From: Desmodesmus armatus | Taxonomy: Eukaryota; Chlorophyta; Chlorophyceae; Sphaeropleales; Scenedesmaceae | Direction: 5' to 3' | Assembly: GCA_007449985.2 (NCBI GenBank) | Contig: VIIQ02000838.1 | Coordinates: 186,001-250,000 of the forward strand | Length of the DNA stretch: 64,000 bases | Shown: positions 42,153 to 56,950 of the stretch, piece after piece | Layout of the letters: every line of letters begins with the position of its first letter | Numbering within the stretch: the stretch's first letter is position 1 | Notes under the pieces: generated by a model | What the model saw: the letters and a program-made list of their open reading frames with translations, nothing else | Told to the model about the DNA's origin: nothing | Database searches by the model: none | Position numbers and translations under genes: made by a program

Positions 42153-45100
42153 TCACAGTTCATCCCCAGGCAAAGGACCGGGGTCATATAGCCCGAAAGA
42201 GCGCGCTTGTCTCAACAGCTCAGTTTGCAACTCGGTGTCATAGTACACAGCAACTGCCATGAAGGAAACTACCAGCACGACAACCCTCACGATCTTCTTC
42301 CGTTTTTTCTTCACCGCGGTCTTCGGATCCGCTGCCTCCCGCTCGTCACGACCCGGTCTCCACAGCAGCGCATTCAGCACGCCGCCCATGAAAACTGCCA
42401 GCACGGTGGATGTCAGACAAATGACATTGTAGGGCATGCTGAAGTCGGGCACTGCAAGCGGTACGACCAAACCCGGGCTGTACACCTGCAAAGGTGCAAG
42501 GGTACAACACAAGCAGGAGAGGTTGTGATGCCAAAGATATGTGGCCGCACAGTGCCCAGCCCAGTCAAGTCAAGGACACACGTGCATCAGCTGTCAGGTC
42601 CTCGCTTCAAGTTGGCACACTTGCGCCTAGAGTCCTTTACAGCGCCACTGTGCACTACATCTGTACAGTGCGCAAAAGGGAGTTGTGTGCACTCGGTGTA
42701 CCCTGTCAAACACAAGCAAACAGGTAGGCTGCACAAGGCAGATGTGCTTACCAGGGGTGGCTCTTGCTGCATCAGTTGCTCCATCAGAGGGCTGACAGCG
42801 GTAAGGTCCCCACCACCCAGGGATCCAGGCGCTGCAAACACCTGCCACCTGTTGCTGCTGGGGACAGCAGCGGCGCCCTGTGACAAGCCCTCCGCTGGAG
42901 TGCTTGGCACCTCCCCCACTGTCACAACAGCAGCTGGCACGTCAAAGCCTCTATGTGCATCTGGTGGGTGTTCCAGCATTCTCAAGAAGGCTTTTGTAAA
43001 CTGTGCTGTGAGGGTGATGCTGTGGACCGACCTGGGGACTGCTAGGCATAGGTCCAGCACGAGTGGCCGCTGCCTGCAAGGTCAACACATCGTTGGCAGT
43101 CGTAGTCTCAGCAGATGCAGGCCAGCAGCACAGAAATATCTGGGAAATGACAGCCAGGCAACAGCATTTTCCCAGGCACAGCAAGCTAGTTGCGCCAGTG
43201 ACAATGGACGATACATCAACAGACTGATGCAAAGTGACAAAGCGCTGCAACGGTGTGGACGGCCAGACCCTGCTGCCGCGCTCGGACTTACCTGTCTTGG
43301 GCAGGGCTGATGTAGGAAGGCAGCAAAACATCCTCAAGAGGCTTGACCTGCAGCACACGAGCAAGAAACATCCCGCAAGAGCAGCAAGTGCAGCAACACA
43401 CAACAGCGGCAGCGTGGTGATGACAGTTTGCAGTCACCCCAGAGATTGCCGACGGCATGTTTACAATAGCTTCAACATGAAGGGCTGCTCAGTAACACAT
43501 CATTTAAAAGATAATCGGCATTAGCTTTGTGTTGTCATGCAGACTGTTGTGCTGCTGACGTTGCCAAATGCCTAACTGCAAGCGATCACAGCTGTGCCAG
43601 ATCCACACAGACAGAATGGTCAGCAGGCGTTGCACCCTAAACCCTGCAACCTAAAACAAAAACCCAGCAAGACAAGGACTGCTGGCCATCTATGCGGAAT
43701 CCACCTGGCCACGCATGCCGCCATAACCCAAGATACCGTCGGTCCAAAGCAAACCCACCTGGCCATCTATGCTGAGCCGTAGGGTGTGCAGCCAGAGTCT
43801 TATGTACCACGGTACCACTTGCAGGATGCACACGGAGATGTTCTTTCCTGCTCCTGCCGTCTCTTGGTCGAGCTGCTGCTGTTGCACTGCAGTTAGCTGC
43901 AATGTCATGCCTCCATGCAGCTGCCCAGTGCCTGTTATGAACCGAGCCACAGAAAACTGCGGACCCTTGGATGACACTGCCAGCACACTCTCTGCAGGAG
44001 CGGCATCTGCATGGGCATCGTTTTGCTGCTGCCACTGTACTGCAAACGGCAGCACGGCACCTGCAGCCGCTGCATGAGGTGCTGTAGGGTTTTGGTGCAG
44101 GTCCCAGATGTACAGCACCAAAGGGCTGCATGCTGCAGGAGTTGTGCTGATATCGCCTGCGCCCTGCGCCTGTTTTGGCGGGAGTCCTGCAGCAGCGCCG
44201 AGCATGCCAGCACAGGCCGGCCCTGTTGGCGCCAGGACCGCTGCTGCATCTGGCGCTGGCTGCAGGGTGAAGGCAGGCCCTGACCATGTCGCTGCTCTAC
44301 TAACCCTGTTTGAACTGCTGTTTTCATGCTGGGCCTGCTGATGCTCCCCTTCAACCTGCTGCTGCTGTGTCAAGTCATCTGCTTCTGGTACTGACCCAGT
44401 GGCGGTCGAGTGTGCTGGGATCCTCAGCAGTGCTGATAGGTCCCTGTCCTGCTGCTCCTGCAGGATGTGCTGAGGCAACTGCAGCATGAGTCGACTGGTG
44501 TCTGCCACGGGGCAGGCAGAAGGTGTCTGTGAGCCCAGTAAGCCAGTGAGGGAGATGTCTGATAGGGTTCCGGGTTTGGGAGGCTCCCTGGTGCTGCTGC
44601 TGAAGGTGTTGGAGGAGGGAGACCGCAGGACCAATGTGAGGGACTGCCGCAGCGTGGTAAGGATGGGGCGCTGCTGTTGGTCGCGTTGGACATCGATGTT
44701 GACCTGCATGGAGTGGTAGTCTGTGGTAGGCGCAGGATGATGAATGCAGGCAGGGCCAACAGCAAAGTAGTTGGTATTGATATGCCAGGATCCCATTGAT
44801 AGTCATTGTGTGAATTTGCGCCCTTCAGCCGTCCAGCACGCAAGTGGTGAGGGCTGTATCGCTCTGAGAAACACAAAAATGCTTCTGTTCCTAATGACTG
44901 AGCTGCACCGATATACATGCCAGCCACTGCTGTGCAGGACAGCACAGGAGCTTACCAGCTCCAAAGACAACACCACGCTGCGTCAGCAGCCGCCCTAGTC
45001 CGGCAGCGTCCCTGCACGACGGCATCAGGCAGCAAGATCACCTGAGCAGCAAGATGTGAGTTGCAGCCTGCTGCTGCCTGCCCGGTGCTAGTTGTTAGGT

Positions 45101-46911: not shown

Positions 46912-47544
46912 TGCACTATGGCAAGCGCGCGTAGGGTGACGGTGAACTCAATTTGACTTGAAGCCAACAGTAGTCATTGTCTTGAGTGCAACGCTGAATC
47001 CGAGCGGCAAGTGATCTATGAATGAGATCAGACTGTCTTTCCTCCTGGGAAACTTTCCTCCTGGAAACTTTGCAGCAGTCGATTCGCTTTAACGGGCGCA
47101 TTTGTTTTCAGTACAATTAACTCCCTTTCTTGACGGAATACAGTTGAGGGACCCCATGCCCAGAACTTTATCAATTGTGTCATTGGACTCTGCATAGCAA
47201 TGCATTAATCTGCAAGCTGCTGAGACAGGCTTCAGCAAGGCTTGCCTGCCAACAGCTGGAAAAGCTACTAAAAACCCACGCGATTCTGAGCCAGCTACCA
47301 CCTGTACAGCAAGCAACCTACTGACCGTCCAAGCATTGCTCAGCAAGCATATCAGCCAGTCTCTGCAGACACCAACAACCCCATATGGACACAAAAATCC
47401 CCGAGCACAGACCCAATAATACACAAATAGCCTGCAGACAGGTCAAAACCACTGCCAGAAAACGGGTGTGCTTGTACAGGCGGTGAGACAACCGGTGGGA
47501 CAACTCCTACTCGCCATCACTGCCCGCTGCCCGACCGGTGCTGA
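46912..47544. other. intergenic region upstream of PIG-T
   Basis: No gene seen. It should hold the PIG-T promoter (minus strand) and the 3' end of the next minus-strand gene. No clear TATA box. A short repeat (TTTCCTCCTGGAAACTTTCCTCCTGGAAAC-like, near 47038-47072) is present. Confidence 0.35.
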
Positions 47545-47678
47545 CTAATCACAGTAGTATTGGGTGCTTGACCCCCAACGCTCCTCCTCATCATCCAGTT
47601 GTACTGCTCCAGCGGCTACTGCTGCTGGTGGAGGTGGTGCTGGCGGGCCTGGGTTTGCCGCGGCTGCTGGCACTGCCA

Positions 47679-47751
<73 letters not shown>

Positions 47752-48380
47752 GGCCGCTCTCTGGATTGCTGCTGCTGCAGCGGCAGCTGCTGGTGCTTGT
47801 GGACGTGCTTCTGCTGCTGTTGCCGCTCTCTGGATTGCTGCTGCTCCAGCGGCAGCTGCTGGTGCTGGCAATGGGCGTGCTGCTGGGGGTGGTAATACTG
47901 CTGCGCTGGCTGCTGCGGCTGCGTGTGATGGTGCTGGTGGGGGTGGTGGGGGTGGTTGCGGCACGACTTGCGTGTCGAGGGTCGTGTAAAGCTGCCAACG
48001 TATGTTTCCCCTCCGGAACCGTGGTTTGCAGTCCCTCACATCGACTGGTGTCACCAAGACAGTTGTACCAACCTGCAGCAAGAATGATCTTTTCTATTTA
48101 GGTCCTGCAAGTATGTTGTTCCAACCAACTGTCGATGAGGTCACAATGCACTGGTATGCTTGTGCATTTCACCCACCTGCAGACTTGCTTCCAAGCTGTC
48201 CATCTTGGCAACATCAAAGCAGAACAAGCCTGTTGACAAGCTGGGATTCATACTGTCAGCCACTGTCGCCACCAAATATGGCCTGCCTGTTTGCGATGTG
48301 AATCTACGGCTGGATACAACGTTGCAAGTCACACTGCAGCCCCTTACGGGGTTCTTCATGTCAGCGATATTGAGATGCAT
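47545..48380 (-). CDS. Small protein with possible OB-like N-terminus and poly-Ala/Pro C-terminus
   Basis: Two minus-strand exons, 48177-48380 and 47545-48072, join in phase 0 (GTGGGT donor, GCTGCAG acceptor), giving about 243 residues from a provisional Met at 48380. Earlier exons are possible; an acceptor-like GGGCTGCAG lies just inside exon 1. The first ~110 residues (RRFTSQTGRPYLVATVADS, LFCFDV, VGTTVLVTPVDVRDCKPRF) read like a small beta-barrel, perhaps OB-fold; this is a guess from pattern only. The rest is Pro-rich, then long poly-Ala (CTG runs on plus at 47690-47750) with two AAAIQRAA islands and an acidic end (LDDEEERWGSSTQYYCD). Function unknown. Confidence 0.45.
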
Positions 48381-49248
48381 GGTGTATGCTGTTGATGCAC
48401 TTGTTGTGGTTTGTGAGGATGTCAGGCCTTGTAGCATGCCGCAATTTGCTTGTAGACTTGCATGTCTGACTAGCACGTCAGCATGTCGGACTGCGACGGT
48501 GGAATGCTGTCGGAACGTCACTTCAGGACCACAGAATGCAGCACTATGGCGACGCAGCTCTCTTATCGCCAATTGTCACTGTGTTCCATCAAAATAAGCA
48601 GTTCTCGCTTACATTCACCAAAATGCCAGCGTGATACGCTCAGCGCCAGAGCTAGCGCGTCTTGACAGCAAGCCGATCGAACAATAATCAAGCACCGTGT
48701 TGAAACGAACAGCCGCTGGTTCTGTTGAACAATCGGTGCCGTTTTTGCACGCGTTGAGTGAGTGTGCGGTGAGTTGCATGGCAGCAGTGGTGTGGCAGTC
48801 TGAATGCACTAGTTTAATTGCAGTGCAACAGGAGACACAACTTCAACCTGTATACAGCTGATGCCCCGAGTAGCGCAATACACTCAATTACACTGTCTAC
48901 TCTCGTTGCCCCTGCAGGACCTTTACTGTCCCAAGAGAGCGCGAGAACATGGCCTGGTGTTCATTTGCATTTGGCCATGTGCCGCAGCAAGCACTGCATG
49001 CAGGTGGGGTGGATAAGACCATTGATTCCGTAAGGGAGGGAAAGCCATGCGATTGGATCAGAAGTGACCATGGAGGGCTGGAGAGGGTGTGGGTTGTTTG
49101 GATTGGCTTGACGGGTTGTGCGGTGCTCGTAGCCTGTTGCCCCCCCCCCCTTCCCCACCACACCACTGGTGATGGCATCCCCAAGGGGGCCTGTGGGACA
49201 CCGTCATCAACCAGACAACTCCACCCGCTATAGTGAGAATGTAAACAG
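48381..49248. other. intergenic region before the Fanzor gene
   Basis: No supported gene. It could contain upstream exons or the promoter of the Fanzor gene, and the left boundary of any transposon carrying it. I found no inverted repeat matching the sequence after 56383. Confidence 0.35.
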
Positions 49249-52200
49249 ATGCTCAGAATGCACCCCTGCTTGTTGGATGCTCTGTGTGCCTCACCCTCCC
49301 GCGCACAGGTTTTACCTCCAGATGGCAAGCATTGCATTGCTGCTGAGGAGGCATACCTCATGCATCCGCCGCCCATAGGCAAGTCCAGGGCAACTGGAGA
49401 AGCCAAGTCTAGGGACAATGGCAAGCCCCTGCCCATGCGCCAGCGTGGACGCCACGGCACTACTGCGCGCTACTGTGGTGTGTGCAGTGAGCCGTGGCTG
49501 TTCACCCCACGTGCTAACCTGCGGCAAGTGCAGCAGCAGCATTGTGTCCTTGCTGACCACACCCAACAGCAGCAGCAGCAGCAGCAGCAAAAGTGGCCCA
49601 GTTTGGGGCCAGCACAGCCCGTGGCAGTGCTACCCCCGTGTGTGCCTAGCAGTAACGGAGACTTGGCACAGCAGCGCTACTCTAGACTGGCGGCATCTGC
49701 TGACAGTCCAAAGCTGTCTGCAGCGAAGGCACTGCTGCATCAGAAGGAGGATCAGTCTCATTGCAGGCAGCGTCCTCGTGTGCGTCAGCCAGCAGTAGTA
49801 GTACCAGCAACAGCCAGCCGGGTGTCAGCGGCGCCCACAAAGCCAGCAGCAGCAGAAGCACACACCATCGTGTCGTCAAATCGCTTCTCTGTGCTGCTGC
49901 ATGATGCGCCAGCAGACGAGGAGGCGATGGACACTGCAGACGCCTCCGCATGTCCGGCACAGCAGTGCAGCACACCCAAGCAGCAGCAACAGCAGCAGGC
50001 ACCCCGGGGAAAAACACCGGCAGCCGGCAGGTTGCAGCGGTCACGTCCTGCCCAGAGTAACCCTTCTGCTTGCAGTGGTGACCCCACCACAGCTGTGCAT
50101 GGGCGATGTGGCCACAGGAAGCCAAGCTGCGGCTGTCCCGTGGCGCAGCAGTCTGCCAGCACTGGGCGCCAACTGGGAATGGTTGTGGCGCTGTTGCTGC
50201 TTGTGGCTGGCCTAGGGGTGTTTGCTTCTACTACAGCAGCTTCAGCAGACATCGCTTTTACAGGCTATTACACCGTGCCAGGTTCTGGTGTTTTGGTGGT
50301 TGGCAACAGCAATGCAAGCCACGACTGGTACTGGTGTGTCACAGCTTGTGTTATATGTTCTGTGGTGTTTGCATGGGTTGCAATAGGCCCGTGCAAACGG
50401 CCTCTGGCGTGTGCTCTCTGCATGCGTCAGTGGCGTCGTGCAAGGCACCTTGGGCGTGGCCTCATGCGTCGGTTGCAGCAGCTCTGTATGCGTGGTTTTG
50501 TGTGCATTGTGTTGATACGCGGTTTATTGGGTGTGGTTGCTGGGCTTGATTGTTTGGTACAAAATGGACTGCGTTCTGTGCATCTTGCTGTGTTGATGGG
50601 CGGCCCTGCAGCTTGTGCAGTCGTTCTGCTTATATTTGCATGTTTGAGGGCTGCCTGTATTCATTTGAAACATAGTCATGTGGTGTTGCTCTATAACTGC
50701 ATCATACTCTGTTTGACGTGCATGGGTGGTGGCATCCTGTACGGTTGTTGTGTGCGGGCATTAGAACTTGTCGTAGTTGGATACTGCTTGTGGCAGTGGT
50801 CAGACAGACCTGCACTCTTTGCACTGGTCATGCTGTTCCTGGTGGTGCCGACGGCAGCAGCTCCTGGTTCTGATGCTCCTGGAACAGCACCTACTTCCCC
50901 TGGGGCTCGACATGCATTGGCAGCAGCTGTTTCTGCAGCCGCGGCTACTGCAGCTGTTGCGGCTGGCACCCGTCTCCGTGCTGTTGCTCCTGAGTTCACT
51001 CCAGGACAGCAGTACAGAGTGGGTCGTGGCAGTGGGACAGGCTGTATGCAGACCCAACAGCATCAGAGTCCTTCTGCAGCCACTTCTACTCCTGTTGCTT
51101 CTGCTGTCCTTCTTGCTGCTGTTGCCCCTGACCAGCAGCACCAGCAGCAGCAACGGCCACAGCGCAGGCCTAAGCGGACAGCAGCAGCAGCAACAACAGC
51201 TGCATTGCTGGCAGGTGACAGCGAAGGCAGTGGCAGCGGTGAGGATTACGAGCACCGTCAGCAGGCACGGGAGTGTGAGGATAGCAAGAAAGAGGGGGCC
51301 AACAGGAAGAAGACCCGGAGAGGGGGGGACTGCAGCAGCAGGATTGCTTGTTCTGCTACTCCAGCAGCTGCTGCTGCTGCTGCTGCTGCTACTGGAGAGC
51401 AACAACAGCGGCAAGGCGGCAGGAAGCAGACGAACAAGAGGCAAGGTGGGTGTATGCATGCACAACGACACCAGCCAATGCAGCAGCTCACCAGCGTGTA
51501 CATGGCTTTTTCCGCCCAATGTCCCGGACAAGCTGTATACACAAGCAGCCTCTACCATTGTGTGCTGTTGAGTCAGGCAGCAAACGTGTTCACGCCCCTT
51601 CACGTCCCTTCTCGTGCGTGCCCCTTCTGCCTTGCACTTCAACTGTCCGCCAACCATCACCTCCATCTCAGGCGTCATTCGCAGCAGCCTCCACGCGTAC
51701 CTGGCACCCAAGCGTCAGACAGCCGCCATGCAGCTGCTGGAGGACTTGGGACACGCCCAACAGCCGTTGTGCTTCCATGCACGGCTCCTGGCCAATGGCT
51801 ATATGCAGTGGGGCTTCGAGTGAGTGTGTAGGCTCCTATGCTTTGCCTGCCACAGCTGGATTGCAACCCAGCCTGATTGCCCAAAATTAGATGACACATG
51901 AGCACATCAGCATACAGTGTGCGTTGATGCCAGCGCCATGCACTTCTCCACTCACAATTTGTGACTGCCGTCTGCTGCCTGTTGCCGCAGGATCTGGTCT
52001 GGCCGCAGGACACCCCCACCCGGCTTGTCTACACAAGATGTCGTCGGCGAACTGACAGAGTTGCTGACGCCTACAAGAAGGAAGCCACGCACCGTGGATA
52101 CCGAGAGCGAACACCTTTTCTTTGCGGCACTGAAGGCCGTGACAGTTGTGCCAGGGGCGCAGGCTCCACTGCGGTATAAACTGCCAGAAGCCTTCGAATT

Positions 52201-55200
52201 CTACGTGCGTGAGGTGTGGCAGGTCGAACACCGCTGTGTGCTGCCGCATTGTGTGTCGGGCCGTGTTGCTAATGCATGGTTGACTGCATTGGCACAGTCC
52301 ATGGCACAAAACCATGGCCAGCATGTGCTCAACCTGCCATTGCGCATCAAACGCCTGGTCAAGGCTGTGGTCTTGTGTGCATTCTGCACGGCTGGCCTGC
52401 CAAGGCCAGGCCGCAAGCAGTTTGGTGTGTTGGCTCGTGGCATGTCGGATGGGTTGCTCAAGGGTGATGCACTGTCCGTGTTTGCAGCACATGTTTTTGA
52501 GCAGCAGCCTGGCCAGCAGCAAGCTGACGAGCAGCGTGTTGTGCTTGCTGCTTCTTTGCTTAGTGCTCCTGTGCACCATTGCATCAGCAGGCTGCAGCAG
52601 CAACGCCTTGCACAACAGCCTGCTCAGCAGACAGACCAGGATTACCTACTGCCTGTGCAGCAAGGCACAAACACCATGAACTATATGCATGCACGCATCA
52701 TAGAACTTGTGCAGGCTTGCAGTGTCATGCGGGCATCAGTGATGTTGCTGAAGGACACACTCTTTGCTGTTCAGCCATGCTCCACACAGGAGATGGTTGC
52801 AGTTGCAATGCAAGCGTCTCAAACAGCTCACCGCATCTGCGACTGGGCCGCGCACTTGCATGGCATGGCAGCACATCTTGTACCGAGCACACCAGACAAT
52901 GTAGCCATTGTGTCACACCTGTTGGCTGTTAGCAGGCAGTCTCTTGGCGTATACAACCAGCTACAGCGCATTCAGCTCGTGGGTCATGTGACGGGGCCTG
53001 TGTCCCATGCTGGTATTTTGCACGCCCGTTCGGCGTCTGCTTTTGCACTAGAAGGCAGCAACAATGCATGCCTGCATGTCAGCACCGCATGTGCCTACAT
53101 CAACAGCCTTGCAACAGCAACGACAGTGGCAGATGCGGCAGTGGCAGGAGAGGCAGTAGCAGCAGCACAGGCTGCTGCACCGCCCCCAAACACAGCCGCC
53201 ATACCTATCGTATGCGGTCCTGCCACGCTTCCTATCAACACCCCAACACGCCGCGACCCAGAAACAACAGCAGCACGCACCTTCACCAGCGCGTTGGTGC
53301 GTGATGTAGGGTGTGGGTTGCAGGCCACGCAACATGCCTTGCGCTGTGCTGTTGACCGCCGCAAGCTGGCGGCGGTTGCAGAGTGTGTGCGGAGTGAGGA
53401 ACTGGCAGGTCAGCTCCACGCAGCCCTGACTTCTACTTCCTCCGGCGATGCTGCAGCTGCCCTGCTGGCCCCCTTGGCCAGGCTTTGCAGCAGCGTGTTC
53501 AGCCATAGTATGCTGCGGCGTGGGCATGTCGTGCTACAGTATGCGGACCTACTGACGAAGCGGGACAGGCTGCATGCAGCACTTCAGCAGCGTCCACAGG
53601 GCCGTCCGCCACCCCCGAAGCAGGCGCAGACCCGGCAGCAGCAGCGACAGCAGCGGCAGAGAAGGGGGCAGGGGCAGGCTGGTGTAACTACTGTGGTGCT
53701 GCCGCCTTTGGCACGCGCACACCGCCAATCGCGGTGTGCTGCAGACAAGGCCAGCGCTGCAAGGAAGTACAGCGCGGCACAGACGGCCAGGAATGACTTG
53801 CAGCGTGTCCAGGATGCCTTGTTTGCGCGACTGCGCCAGCTGGCTGCCCCCTCTAACCTGCCCTTGCCAACCTCTTTGCAGCTGCGGCAGTGCTTAACGC
53901 AGTTGCGCCGTGCTGTGTGCCTCCTGGACACATGTGAGGCAAAGCTAGTCGAGGCAGCAGTGACAGCAGAGCGCTTGCGCGGCGAGGCGGCTGCAGTTGT
54001 TGCTGGCCAACCACACAGTCAGCAGGGACATCAGCCGAGCGAGGCGGCAGTGAGGGAGGCATGTGCATCTGCGCGTTTGTGCATGAGGTTGGCTTTGGAT
54101 CACGCCCGTTTGGTGGTGCCCGTGTTAGGTGCGTGCCCGGATGCACCGGTTGTGCCTGGGTTTGGAGTGTGGGCTACCACCCCTGACACGCAACTGAACG
54201 AGTGCGGTGACGAGGCCCGTAGTGTGTGGCAGTGGGTTATGGGCATGTGTCTGCAAGTGCTATTGTTACTGGCTGTAGACGCCGATGCCGGGAGTGCAGC
54301 TGCAAGTGCTCCATCCCGCGCGCCAGCACCGGGATTGTTGAAAGGCGTGTTGCAGCAAGTCAACAAGATAGAGGCTCAGTGGCGCTCTTGTCGCATTGCA
54401 TTGCAACGCCTCCCACATAGCATGACGCCGCATCCTCATTATGGTTTTACACATTTGCACTTGACACCCACACTATTGGGTTTCCTCAGAAAACATCTGT
54501 CCGGCATGGGTCCCGAGGCACGCAATGATTGGCGGGTGTGGCGGCGGCAACAGCGTGGTGTTGACCCACTACCCGTGGCTGGTGTTGACACTGTTGATGT
54601 CATCTGCGATGGTGCTGTAGAGGACATCGCGTCTACCGAGGATTTATTTAGTTTGTTGTTTGACCTTGACCGCTTGAGGGTCTTGTGTGGGGAGGGAAGG
54701 CCCAGTGGGAGACGCAGCTTTGCAAACCACCTTAGCACTGACTGTGTGTCGTTGCATGTGCATGCGACACACAACAAAGACGAGCGTGCCACCAGAAGCG
54801 CGGTCAGGTCTCTTGATGGACAGCAAAAGGCCCGCAGGGCCCGGCAGCGCGTGGCCGAGGCAGCTGCCCTGGACCATGCCCGGCAGGCCGTGGGCAGGGC
54901 AATCAAGTTGCCAACACCAGGCACAACCCCTGCGTATGTATTTGGCGGGGGTGATGATGACTGCAGCACTGTTTGTAGCACTGTGGCCGCTGCATCTAGA
55001 TCTAGGTCAGACCATGTACGGGTACTGGACGGTGACTGGCGTGTCCTTGTGGCCCGCAATGCTAGAGACGGCCCTGTAGTCACGCACGTGCCCGCACAGG
55101 CCCTGCCCAAGCAGGTCAAGACAAAGCCGGAAGGCTTGGCACAGCATTGGGTTGACTCCCATGCATCTGACCCAGCAGAGGGTGCTTCGGTGGAAGAGTG

Positions 55201-56383
55201 GGACTTGGCAAGTGATTACAGTGTGGACAGGACTAGCTACGACTTTTCTGACTCTGACTCAATTGACAGTAGCTTTTGTGTGGAGTCCAAATGTGACAGT
55301 TGTGCGCCTACTGTTGGACAGCCGGCTCTGGTACATGGCAGATGTGTGACTGTTGAGGCAGGATGTGGGCTGCGGGTGACTGGAGTTGACCCAGGTGTGA
55401 CCAGCATCGTGACTGCGGTCACTGCAAACCATGGCGTGCGGGGCGACGGCACTGATGGAGGGGATGGCTGGGTGTATGCTGTTAATGGGAGGGAATACCG
55501 GTCTGCATGTGGGCTAGATAGGCAGCGCCATTGGCTGCATGGGCGTATCAAGCGTGCTGGTGTGGCACTGCTGCTCAAGCACTTGCAGAGAACCGGCGAG
55601 AAGCATGGCCAGCATGACGCCTTTGTTTTGCATGCACGTAAGGCCATTCATGCTTTTCCTCAGTTGCATGCTGTGTACGGTTGCAGGTCTGCCCGGCATC
55701 ACCGGTTTAGAATTGGCATGCTGCAGGACCGGCAAATGCACAGGATGTGCCAGTGCTTGGCATTGGGGCACACGGGGGTGCAAGGGCGCAAGTGGCAGAA
55801 GCCGATGGGTTGCAATGCAGGCCCGTGTGTCCCCCGGCCAAGTGTTGCTGTTGTTTGCATGGGGGATGCATCAGCAGGTTGGGGCGGGCCAGTGTCACGG
55901 TCCATCAGTGCCCCTGTCATGAAGCTGAGGAACTTTTTTAGGGCACAATATGGGTCGGCAGACGGCGTGACTCGTGGTGGGCGCACAGACATGCATTGGG
56001 TGTCTGTGCACGAGTACCGGACCAGCCAGACCTGCTCTCGCTGCTATGACGAACGTGGGCTGAAACAGCACCGCAGGGGACGTTTCAAGCTCAAGCAGTG
56101 TGTGCATGGCGAGGCTGTGTCGACACCTGACAGGTTGCGGGAACAACTGCATCATGTTGTGGTTGGAGAGGATAATCACTCGCGGCGTGTACCATTGGTC
56201 CTGGACAGGGATATCAACGCTGCCCGTGTGTTGACAGCCAGGGGGGTGGCACAACTGGTGCCTGCCATGTGTGTACACCAGGGGCAACTACAGCAGCTGG
56301 CACGCTGTGTTGACCGTGTGGTGCGCAAGGACTGGTTAAACCGGCAGCGGCGGCCACGACAAGAAGAGGGGGCAGCAGTGTAA
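49249..56383 (+). CDS. Fanzor (eukaryotic TnpB-like RuvC nuclease) with long membrane-type N-terminal extension
   Basis: Three exons, 49249-51445 (phase 1, GTGGGT), 51672-51819 (phase 2, GTGAGT) and 51991-56383, encode about 2,245 residues; phases agree at both junctions and the first acceptor has a long pyrimidine tract. The C-terminal ~350 residues carry the TnpB/Fanzor RuvC core: VTGVDPGVTSIV (RuvC-I Asp codon 55388-55390), VAVVCMGDAS, HEYRTSQTCSRC (candidate RuvC-II Glu 56012-56014 plus zinc-ribbon Cys pair) and LDRDINAARVL (RuvC-III Asp 56210-56212). Upstream are helical Ala/Gln-rich regions and an acidic Ser/Asp stretch. Residues ~310-535 contain about six hydrophobic segments between Gln/Ala-rich linkers. 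Known Fanzors are RNA-guided DNA nucleases spread by transposons, and most are far shorter. The second zinc Cys pair looks reduced (KQCVHG). The start codon and the fusion itself need transcript support. Confidence 0.8.
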
Positions 56384-56852
56384 GCAGCGGCTGTGGCAGC
56401 AGCAGGGGGTGTCGGCGGGGTGGCAGTGCACCATCAGCCAATCCCCGGTGGTGCCAGGGCTAGATGTGTGGGATCGTTTAGCAGTGCCTATTGGTTTACA
56501 ATGTCGCTGAACTGCCCCGCGGGGCTTGGAGGTCCCCAGCAGAGGGGAGACCCTCTGCTGAGTGGGGGTGGGGTGTTTGGGGGGGGGGGAGTGTTTTAGT
56601 TTTGGCCTTACCATCGGTGTGCCGGGCAAGATGTGCAGCATTGTACAATTAGCATTGTCTGCAAGACTTTCAGTTGCATCCCTGCAAAGGGATTGCTTGC
56701 TCTGCGAAAGCAGGCAAGTTGCGCGTCAACTGCGCAAAAACCGGCCTGTGCATCACTGGCTCGGTGGGCAGCCATTTTTTCTTTATGGGTCGAGTTTCTC
56801 CCCAGCTGCCCATGAAGAACACACCAGGATACTTTGAAAGTTTCCTGGTGTG
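56384..56852 (+). ncRNA. Candidate Fanzor omega-RNA / structured 3' region
   Basis: Directly after the Fanzor stop there is a run of strong hairpins. GCCCCGCGGGGC lies at 56514-56525. A 9-bp stem with GAGA loop (AGCAGAGGG/CCCTCTGCT) lies at 56538-56559, nested in a CCCC/GGGG outer pair. A GAAA-loop stem (about 56696-56718, CTTGC.CTGC/GCAGGCAAG) and TTGCGC/GCGCAA (about 56719-56737) follow. A 33-bp palindrome lies at 56820-56852. In known TnpB and Fanzor systems the guide RNA overlaps or follows the 3' end of the nuclease gene up to the element's right end. That position makes this the candidate; the assignment is inference, and the boundaries are unknown. Confidence 0.35.
56820..56852. repeat. 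33-bp near-perfect palindrome
   Basis: CACACCAGGA t ACTTTGAAAGT t TCCTGGTGTG: a 10-bp outer stem with a self-complementary centre. It would form a strong hairpin in either strand. It could be the element's right-end structure, a terminator-like element, or the end of the candidate omega-RNA. Confidence 0.8.
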
Positions 56853-56950
56853 ACTATTCAACTTGAACGCGTTAGCGCTAACATCAACCCTGCTTTAGAA
56901 ACTATATCGCATTTCTCGTTTGGACTCAATACTTCTTTGTGCTGAGTGTT

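Follow-up and report, generated by a model that had tools for sequence, protein, structure and literature searches.

A 64,000-nt stretch of the Desmodesmus armatus genome (assembly GCA_007449985.2, contig VIIQ02000838.1, positions 186,001 to 250,000; hereafter the window) contains one copy of a 9.84-kb repeat that is dispersed through the genome and carries a TnpB/Fanzor-type gene. The repeat has definite ends, numerous near-identical copies and a preference for insertion beside GATC, and its gene encodes the fingerprint residues of Fanzor nucleases. We consider it probable that the predicted RNA-guided nuclease re-cuts emptied GATC sites and that the element is copied back. A first-pass annotation had described the same gene (49249 to 56383, plus strand) as a Fanzor nuclease fused to a multi-pass membrane-like N terminus; the repeat nature of the locus and a second gene on its minus strand go beyond that account. 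A real fusion would mean a membrane-anchored RNA-guided nuclease, new to biology, and the parts of the open-licence PMC literature covered yielded no description of a Fanzor-membrane fusion. Without the fusion, there is still a Fanzor element that seems to have multiplied recently, keeps full-length frames in ten copies and inserts beside a clear motif. The family also pairs a nuclease lacking the second CxxC of its zinc ribbon with a second gene whose exons outpace their own intron.

The repeat spans 47026 to 56860 (no strand assigned). DNA alignments between the window and other copies break at these positions, 47026 on the 5' side and 56860 on the 3' side, and both ends are common to many copies. 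All genome searches covered an assembly of 115.8 Mb in 831 contigs. The nuclease frame found 47 matches, ten of which, the window copy counted, are full length and free of stops (eight of 1472 codons, two of 1469). The upstream, exon-1 frame found 54 matches, which by contig and place belong to the same copies. The 3' end occurs at 28 places (a search with the last 302 bases returned 29 matches, of which one is a 34-bp tail), two of which are cut by a contig end; the 5' end occurs at 20 (the first 300 bases gave 21 matches, one without the terminal 22 bases). Some copies have a flank in common: C738 and C739, and C561 and C562, on the 5' side; C561 and C107 on the 3' side; C122 and C253 have a truncated 5' end in common. 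Such copies may be alleles or assembly duplicates, and because of them the number of independent insertions is below 28. Across the 23 other mapped copies, exon 3 diverges from the window by 0.0 to 2.9%; the 5' part of the element is more varied, differing by up to 6% over 1.5 kb. Internal deletion derivatives (C752 and C60) and 5'-truncated copies (C1, C118 and the pair C122/C253) are also present. Given 28 3' ends, 20 5' ends and ten full-length, stop-free nuclease frames, the family looks recently mobile. None of 600 stretches of viral contigs held a relative.

The element begins with GATCAGACTG and ends with CACACCAGGA-loop-TCCTGGTGTG-ACTATTCA. Its 3' terminal hairpin (56820 to 56852, plus strand) has a 10-bp stem (z = -4.8 folded as RNA, -6.3 as DNA), is followed by ACTATTCA and stops 8 nt short of the element end. 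The 5' end (47026 to 47085, plus strand) folds back weakly, GATCAGACTG..CAGTCGATTC (z = -1.2 as RNA, -1.6 as DNA), and a 10-bp inverted match, GGAAACTTTC, is of a kind given by 5.8% of random pairs. The 3' noncoding end as a whole (56384 to 56860, plus strand) gives a better fold than all 100 shuffled versions (z = -4.05) and is a candidate guide-RNA scaffold; every Rfam match within the element was below its gathering score.

In the window, the host flank carries GATC at 47013 to 47016 (plus strand), 9 nt before the element. Of 16 copies, 12 have the motif no more than 17 nt ahead of the 5' junction; among 17-nt segments of the window, the background is 2.5% (binomial p = 8e-17; C739 and C562 were dropped as repeats of other flanks). 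In none of the 16 does it occur in the next 23 nt outward. Adding C1, C118, C253 and C752 brings the count to 15 of 20. When the joined flanks of nine copies were searched for empty sites, two diverged paralogues of the C24 insertion site were found, and one of them, empty, carries GATC at the insertion point. Flush target site duplications were at most 0 to 3 nt long in the 12 copies with both flanks. Duplications beginning directly after GATC appeared in three of these 12, a result equalled in 463 of 5000 permutations, and we do not claim them. At the 5' junctions of copies (for example L056, L058 and L061), 0 to 13 extra bases separate the host GATC from that of the element. Among these bases, the triplet ACA is seen again at three separate sites, resembling a carry-over from a donor site.

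The nuclease is encoded by exon 3 (51991 to 56383, plus strand), which lies in an open frame of 1472 codons (51965 to 56383), is stop-free in ten copies and specifies a long N-terminal region of unknown fold followed by the Fanzor-type part. We aligned the window with nine relatives from public sequence, two of which (P0008 and P0009) begin after the DPG motif. In the window, RuvC-I (GVDPG) comes first, then the Fanzor-type glutamate (HEYRTSQTCSRC) and last RuvC-III (LDRDINAAR), and all three are conserved in the relatives. DPG, with the RuvC-I aspartate codon of VDPG at 55388 to 55390, is found in 8/8 sequences covering the position. The displaced RuvC-II glutamate (56012 to 56014), six residues before the CxxC in a stretch that reads E-YRTSQT-CSRC in the window, and the RuvC-III aspartate of DRDINAAR (56210 to 56212) are each invariant in all ten, and PF07282 matches all ten at E ≤ 1. 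DPG plus a displaced glutamate is the Fanzor fingerprint as set out in the relevant section of Yoon et al. (PMC10711439). The spacing (210 residues from D to TS, then TSQTC and DRD) also fits the Fanzor motif as quoted from Bao and Jurka, D-X(125,275)-[TS][TS]XXC with a C4 zinc finger (PMC3627910). These comparisons support the first-pass identification of the exon-3 product as a TnpB/Fanzor homologue. Its statement that RuvC-I, -II, -III and a zinc ribbon occur in order is borne out for the three RuvC motifs; the zinc ribbon (56033 to 56152, plus strand) is degenerate and has only a CxxC and one further Cys, together with an invariant His that may replace the lost ligand as the fourth. A zinc finger is ascribed to "many" Fanzor members in the section cited (PMC10711439). 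Since the second CxxC is absent, we file the gene as a Fanzor-like variant that matches the 2013 motif incompletely.

Purifying selection acts on exon 3: the ratio of nonsynonymous to synonymous substitution rates (dN/dS) is 0.49 (p = 1e-7) in 19 copies, leaving out C738, C739, C107 and C253 as suspected assembly errors, and 0.66 in all 23. One-nucleotide deletions at 53612, 54577 and 55831, each common to two copies, complicate this simple story, as do frameshifts confined to single copies in exon 1 (for example in C103, C118, C122 and C737); both kinds may be real or assembly errors. As a separate observation, P0001, an 80%-identical relative, has a RING finger (PF13920, residues 1503 to 1544, 28.2 bits against a cutoff of 27) C-terminal of its nuclease part, and the window copy ends before such a domain.

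How might such an element be maintained? In OMEGA (obligate mobile element-guided activity) systems, as outlined in the part of Saito et al. used here, the nuclease follows an RNA guide derived from the element end, and cutting is discussed as a possible aid to copying the element back (PMC10432273). Applied to the present element, this model would make the host sequence following ATTCA the guide and GATC the recognition motif of the nuclease. The 3' noncoding end would yield the guide RNA. An emptied site would then consist of GATC with the guide sequence behind it, the nuclease would cut this site again, and the element would be copied back. Movement itself would depend on an enzyme supplied from another locus, probably a rolling-circle one that resembles that of Helitron2. 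With less confidence, we suggest that exon 1 would be spliced in frame to the nuclease, adding a hydrophobic, possibly membrane-inserted start and a basic Q/A-rich linker. Since the element appears recently amplified and has a clear motif, GATC plus flank is directly usable as a candidate natural recognition motif and guide. Pfam searches recognised no Rep-helicase, whether in exon 1, in the frame of exon 3 or in the minus-strand gene. Elsewhere in the genome, Helitron Rep-domain matches over the family cutoff occur at four loci (C637:388247, C135:211588, C189:152170 and C153:139243), two of them in open frames of more than 1000 codons. These loci are candidate mobilising partners; the 7 kb beside one of the four contained no end in common with the element.

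The nearest known counterparts are CRe-1, CRe-2 and CRe-3, Fanzor1 elements of Chlamydomonas reinhardtii that are described as non-autonomous Helitron2 elements in the portion of Bao and Jurka 2013 cited here (PMC3627910). In that portion, they resemble the present element as intron-bearing Fanzor genes of an alga, in non-autonomous elements with a hairpin end, inserted after a tetranucleotide, with 5' truncations that leave the 3' end intact and mostly no duplication at the exact ends. In contrast, their target is TTTT rather than GATC, their ends match known Helitrons whereas no partner was found for ours, and the portion cited describes neither a hydrophobic N-terminal exon nor a minus-strand gene, both present here (PMC3627910). 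By analogy, the present element may work as these do and could be a non-autonomous member. It has the 3' hairpin and the lack of exact-end duplication of Helitron2 and Helentron elements; as neither a Rep-helicase within the element nor a T-rich target was found, GATC taking the place of the latter, we do not file it as Helitron2. Its DPG RuvC-I, displaced glutamate and RuvC-III aspartate are, by sequence, like those of SpuFz1, GtFz1 and PpFz1 in the sections available of the reports on them (PMC10432273, PMC11423790, PMC10711439). Unlike those proteins, as presented there, it has no PDB sequence match, no second CxxC and a predicted length of 1494 to 2245 residues. An abundant Fanzor-encoding repeat of another green alga, Auxenochlorella, is similar going by that description alone, which comes from an excerpt (PMC12633428). 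Helentrons with RPA genes, in the excerpt used, likewise have a palindrome near the 3' end and extra small genes. They also have subterminal inverted repeats, to which the 10-bp inverted match of the present element may correspond. They differ in their Rep-helicase, of which none was found in the present element; the RPA likeness of its minus-strand gene is by eye only (PMC4067079).

Upstream of exon 3, the first-pass annotation had used two phase-matched introns to connect it to a first exon in a protein of about 2,245 residues, and the junctions and phases proved correct. Exon 1 (49249 to 51445, plus strand; 732 residues of predicted N-terminal part) lies inside an open frame of 864 codons (49237 to 51831) that continues past the donor. 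Intron 1 (51446 to 51671; AAG/GTGGGT..CTCAG/G) is followed by exon 2 (51672 to 51819) and intron 2 (51820 to 51990; CGA/GTGAGT..CGCAG/G), both introns having GT..AG ends on the plus strand. Exon lengths of 2197 and 148 give matching phases, and the three exons together encode 2245 residues without an internal stop. Seven of the 23 mapped copies have in common a 13-bp deletion within intron 1, whereas indels at the recurrent exon-1 sites (49567, 50231, 51178 and 51367) are multiples of three, with one exception, a 4-bp change at 49567 in C217; this difference supports the intron model. Intron 1 has no codon-position bias (p = 0.38), and 51446 to 51671 behaves like an intron. Single 1-nt indels occur in intron 2 of C68 and C1.

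Exon 1 is very probably coding: none of 500 shuffles leaves it open, and its codon-position bias is strong (p = 2e-12). Within it, a simple hydrophobicity scan called five segments (50170 to 50226, 50332 to 50388, 50602 to 50658, 50680 to 50736 and 50806 to 50862, plus strand), so the hydrophobic character held up and the count of about six given before came down to five. The block as a whole (50170 to 50862) was open in 6 of 2000 shuffles and has a codon-position bias of p = 0.027, figures that disfavour a T-rich intron open by chance. We also discarded the idea of a captured host membrane gene, as all 54 exon-1 matches lie with the element. Among 7984 scored database candidates, none reached E 0.001. 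A genome search with P0002, run to learn whether the hydrophobic exon is general among Fanzors, gave 42 matches, all of the same family by place (with the best 41 of 63 candidates scored), and no other Fanzor family among them. Exon 2 contains an in-frame ATG at 51728 in a GCCGCCATG context (GCCGCC), which we take to be a good start context, and because of this alternative start the locus could make a Fanzor that lacks the hydrophobic part.

Several results weigh against the reading set out above, in which a spliced, guide-directed nuclease re-cuts GATC sites. Five of the 20 junctions have no GATC, and the second paralogous empty site of C24 has GGAAC in its place. No transposase was recognised within the element, and no guide RNA was identified. 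On the nuclease side, the second CxxC is missing from all ten aligned sequences. The window frame scores 20.4 bits with PF07282, below the cutoff of 26.3 (P0001, 14.3; P0002, 26.9), and a genome-wide search with this family gave no match at E ≤ 0.001. The best NCBIfam TnpB match has E 0.99, sequence and profile searches of PDB chains returned nothing, and two AlphaFold2 models with a mean predicted local distance difference test (pLDDT) of 31.5 and 36.9 are unusable for judging the RuvC fold. For exon 1, dN/dS is 0.68 (p = 0.036; pairwise range 0.43 to 1.34), and the two wrong frames give 0.66 (p = 0.029) and 1.03, so that the constraint is not frame-specific. Nor does codon usage consistently favour its own frame across stretches of the exon, or clearly favour it in the hydrophobic block, where dN/dS is 0.92, a value that speaks against the fusion. 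Since the shuffle and bias tests are positive while dN/dS and codon usage are not frame-specific, we regard exon 1 as very probably coding and its membrane-like part as a region without demonstrated constraint.

We judge it doubtful that a transposon has joined a multi-pass membrane domain to its RNA-guided nuclease and thereby lets the enzyme act from a membrane, for instance the nuclear envelope. The same doubtful proposal would have the membrane-placed nuclease meet the element's own replicating or re-entering DNA, with the fast-changing minus-strand gene as its partner. A tentative but real possibility is that the locus makes two products, a hydrophobic exon-1 protein and a separate Fanzor of about 1494 residues starting at ATG 51728, with no membrane fusion. 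The GCCGCCATG context of that ATG, the dN/dS of 0.92 in the hydrophobic block, a whole-exon dN/dS equalled by one of two wrong frames and an exon-1 frame open beyond the donor to 51831 all fit this view. However, the donor site is in frame with exon 2, and the read-through tail is disrupted in differing ways among copies that have the 13-bp deletion and has no codon bias. The earlier caution that the splice model might have fused two genes is thus kept alive by the wrong-frame value and the exon-2 ATG, while the intron evidence favours the join.

Other explanations concern what the protein does and how the element moves. We think it rather unlikely that the element is self-mobile and unrelated to Helitrons, with an unrecognised transposase in exon 1, in the first 900 residues of exon 3 or in the minus-strand gene. 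More than half of the coding capacity is without a Pfam match, the T-rich target of Helitron2 is missing and the 7 kb beside one Rep locus has no common end; against this, the hairpin end, the lack of flush duplications, the 5' truncations and the internal deletions fit mobilisation in trans, as in Chlamydomonas. Loss of cutting, with the Fanzor-like protein retained by the element in a structural, binding or regulatory role, seems to us quite improbable. It would suit the degenerate zinc ribbon, the very long N-terminal region and the low-pLDDT models, but the three candidate catalytic residues are invariant where covered and exon 3 is under purifying selection. Domestication as a single host gene, which the first-pass annotation had entertained and for which the unusual protein length and the membrane-like extension might speak, is scarcely credible for a gene found in dispersed, near-identical copies with common ends. 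We retain the copy-back reading, in which the nuclease cuts emptied GATC sites, as the probable one.

The second gene lies on the minus strand near the 5' end of the element. Its exon A (48177 to 48380, with the ATG at 48380) keeps its frame across lineages down to 61-70% protein identity, an intron follows (48073 to 48176; CTGCAG/GTGGGT..GCTGCAG/G), and exon B (47545 to 48072) comprises a conserved part, a low-complexity P/A-rich tail and the stop. The two-exon frame from 48380 to 47545 is open in 12 copies including the window, with eight distinct sequences, and in C134 neither piece of the gene holds a stop. It is broken in C737, at a contig edge, in C5, by a 2-nt gap, and in C136, where it is interrupted; C118, C122 and C253 have it cut off. 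A genome search gave 43 matches at E ≤ 1, 42 of them inside element copies; the remaining one has E 0.16 and two stops.

Between the window and C3a, the exons of this gene differ at 60 of 315 sites and its intron at 6 of 104 (p = 0.0009), so the exons change about threefold faster than their own intron. At 48701 to 49240, the same two copies differ at 2 of 538 sites, and the minus-strand region could be an exchanged older segment. We do not claim positive selection (dN/dS 1.64, p = 0.10). An RPA or oligonucleotide/oligosaccharide-binding (OB)-fold identity, suggested by eye, drew no support from Pfam and PDB searches, which gave no match; RPA genes are known from Helitrons and Helentrons, according to the excerpt cited (PMC4067079). 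A neighbour of the insertion marks the DNA as eukaryotic: a minus-strand frame at 43690 to 44802 matches PF04113, Gpi16, a subunit of the glycosylphosphatidylinositol (GPI) transamidase, with 53.8 bits.

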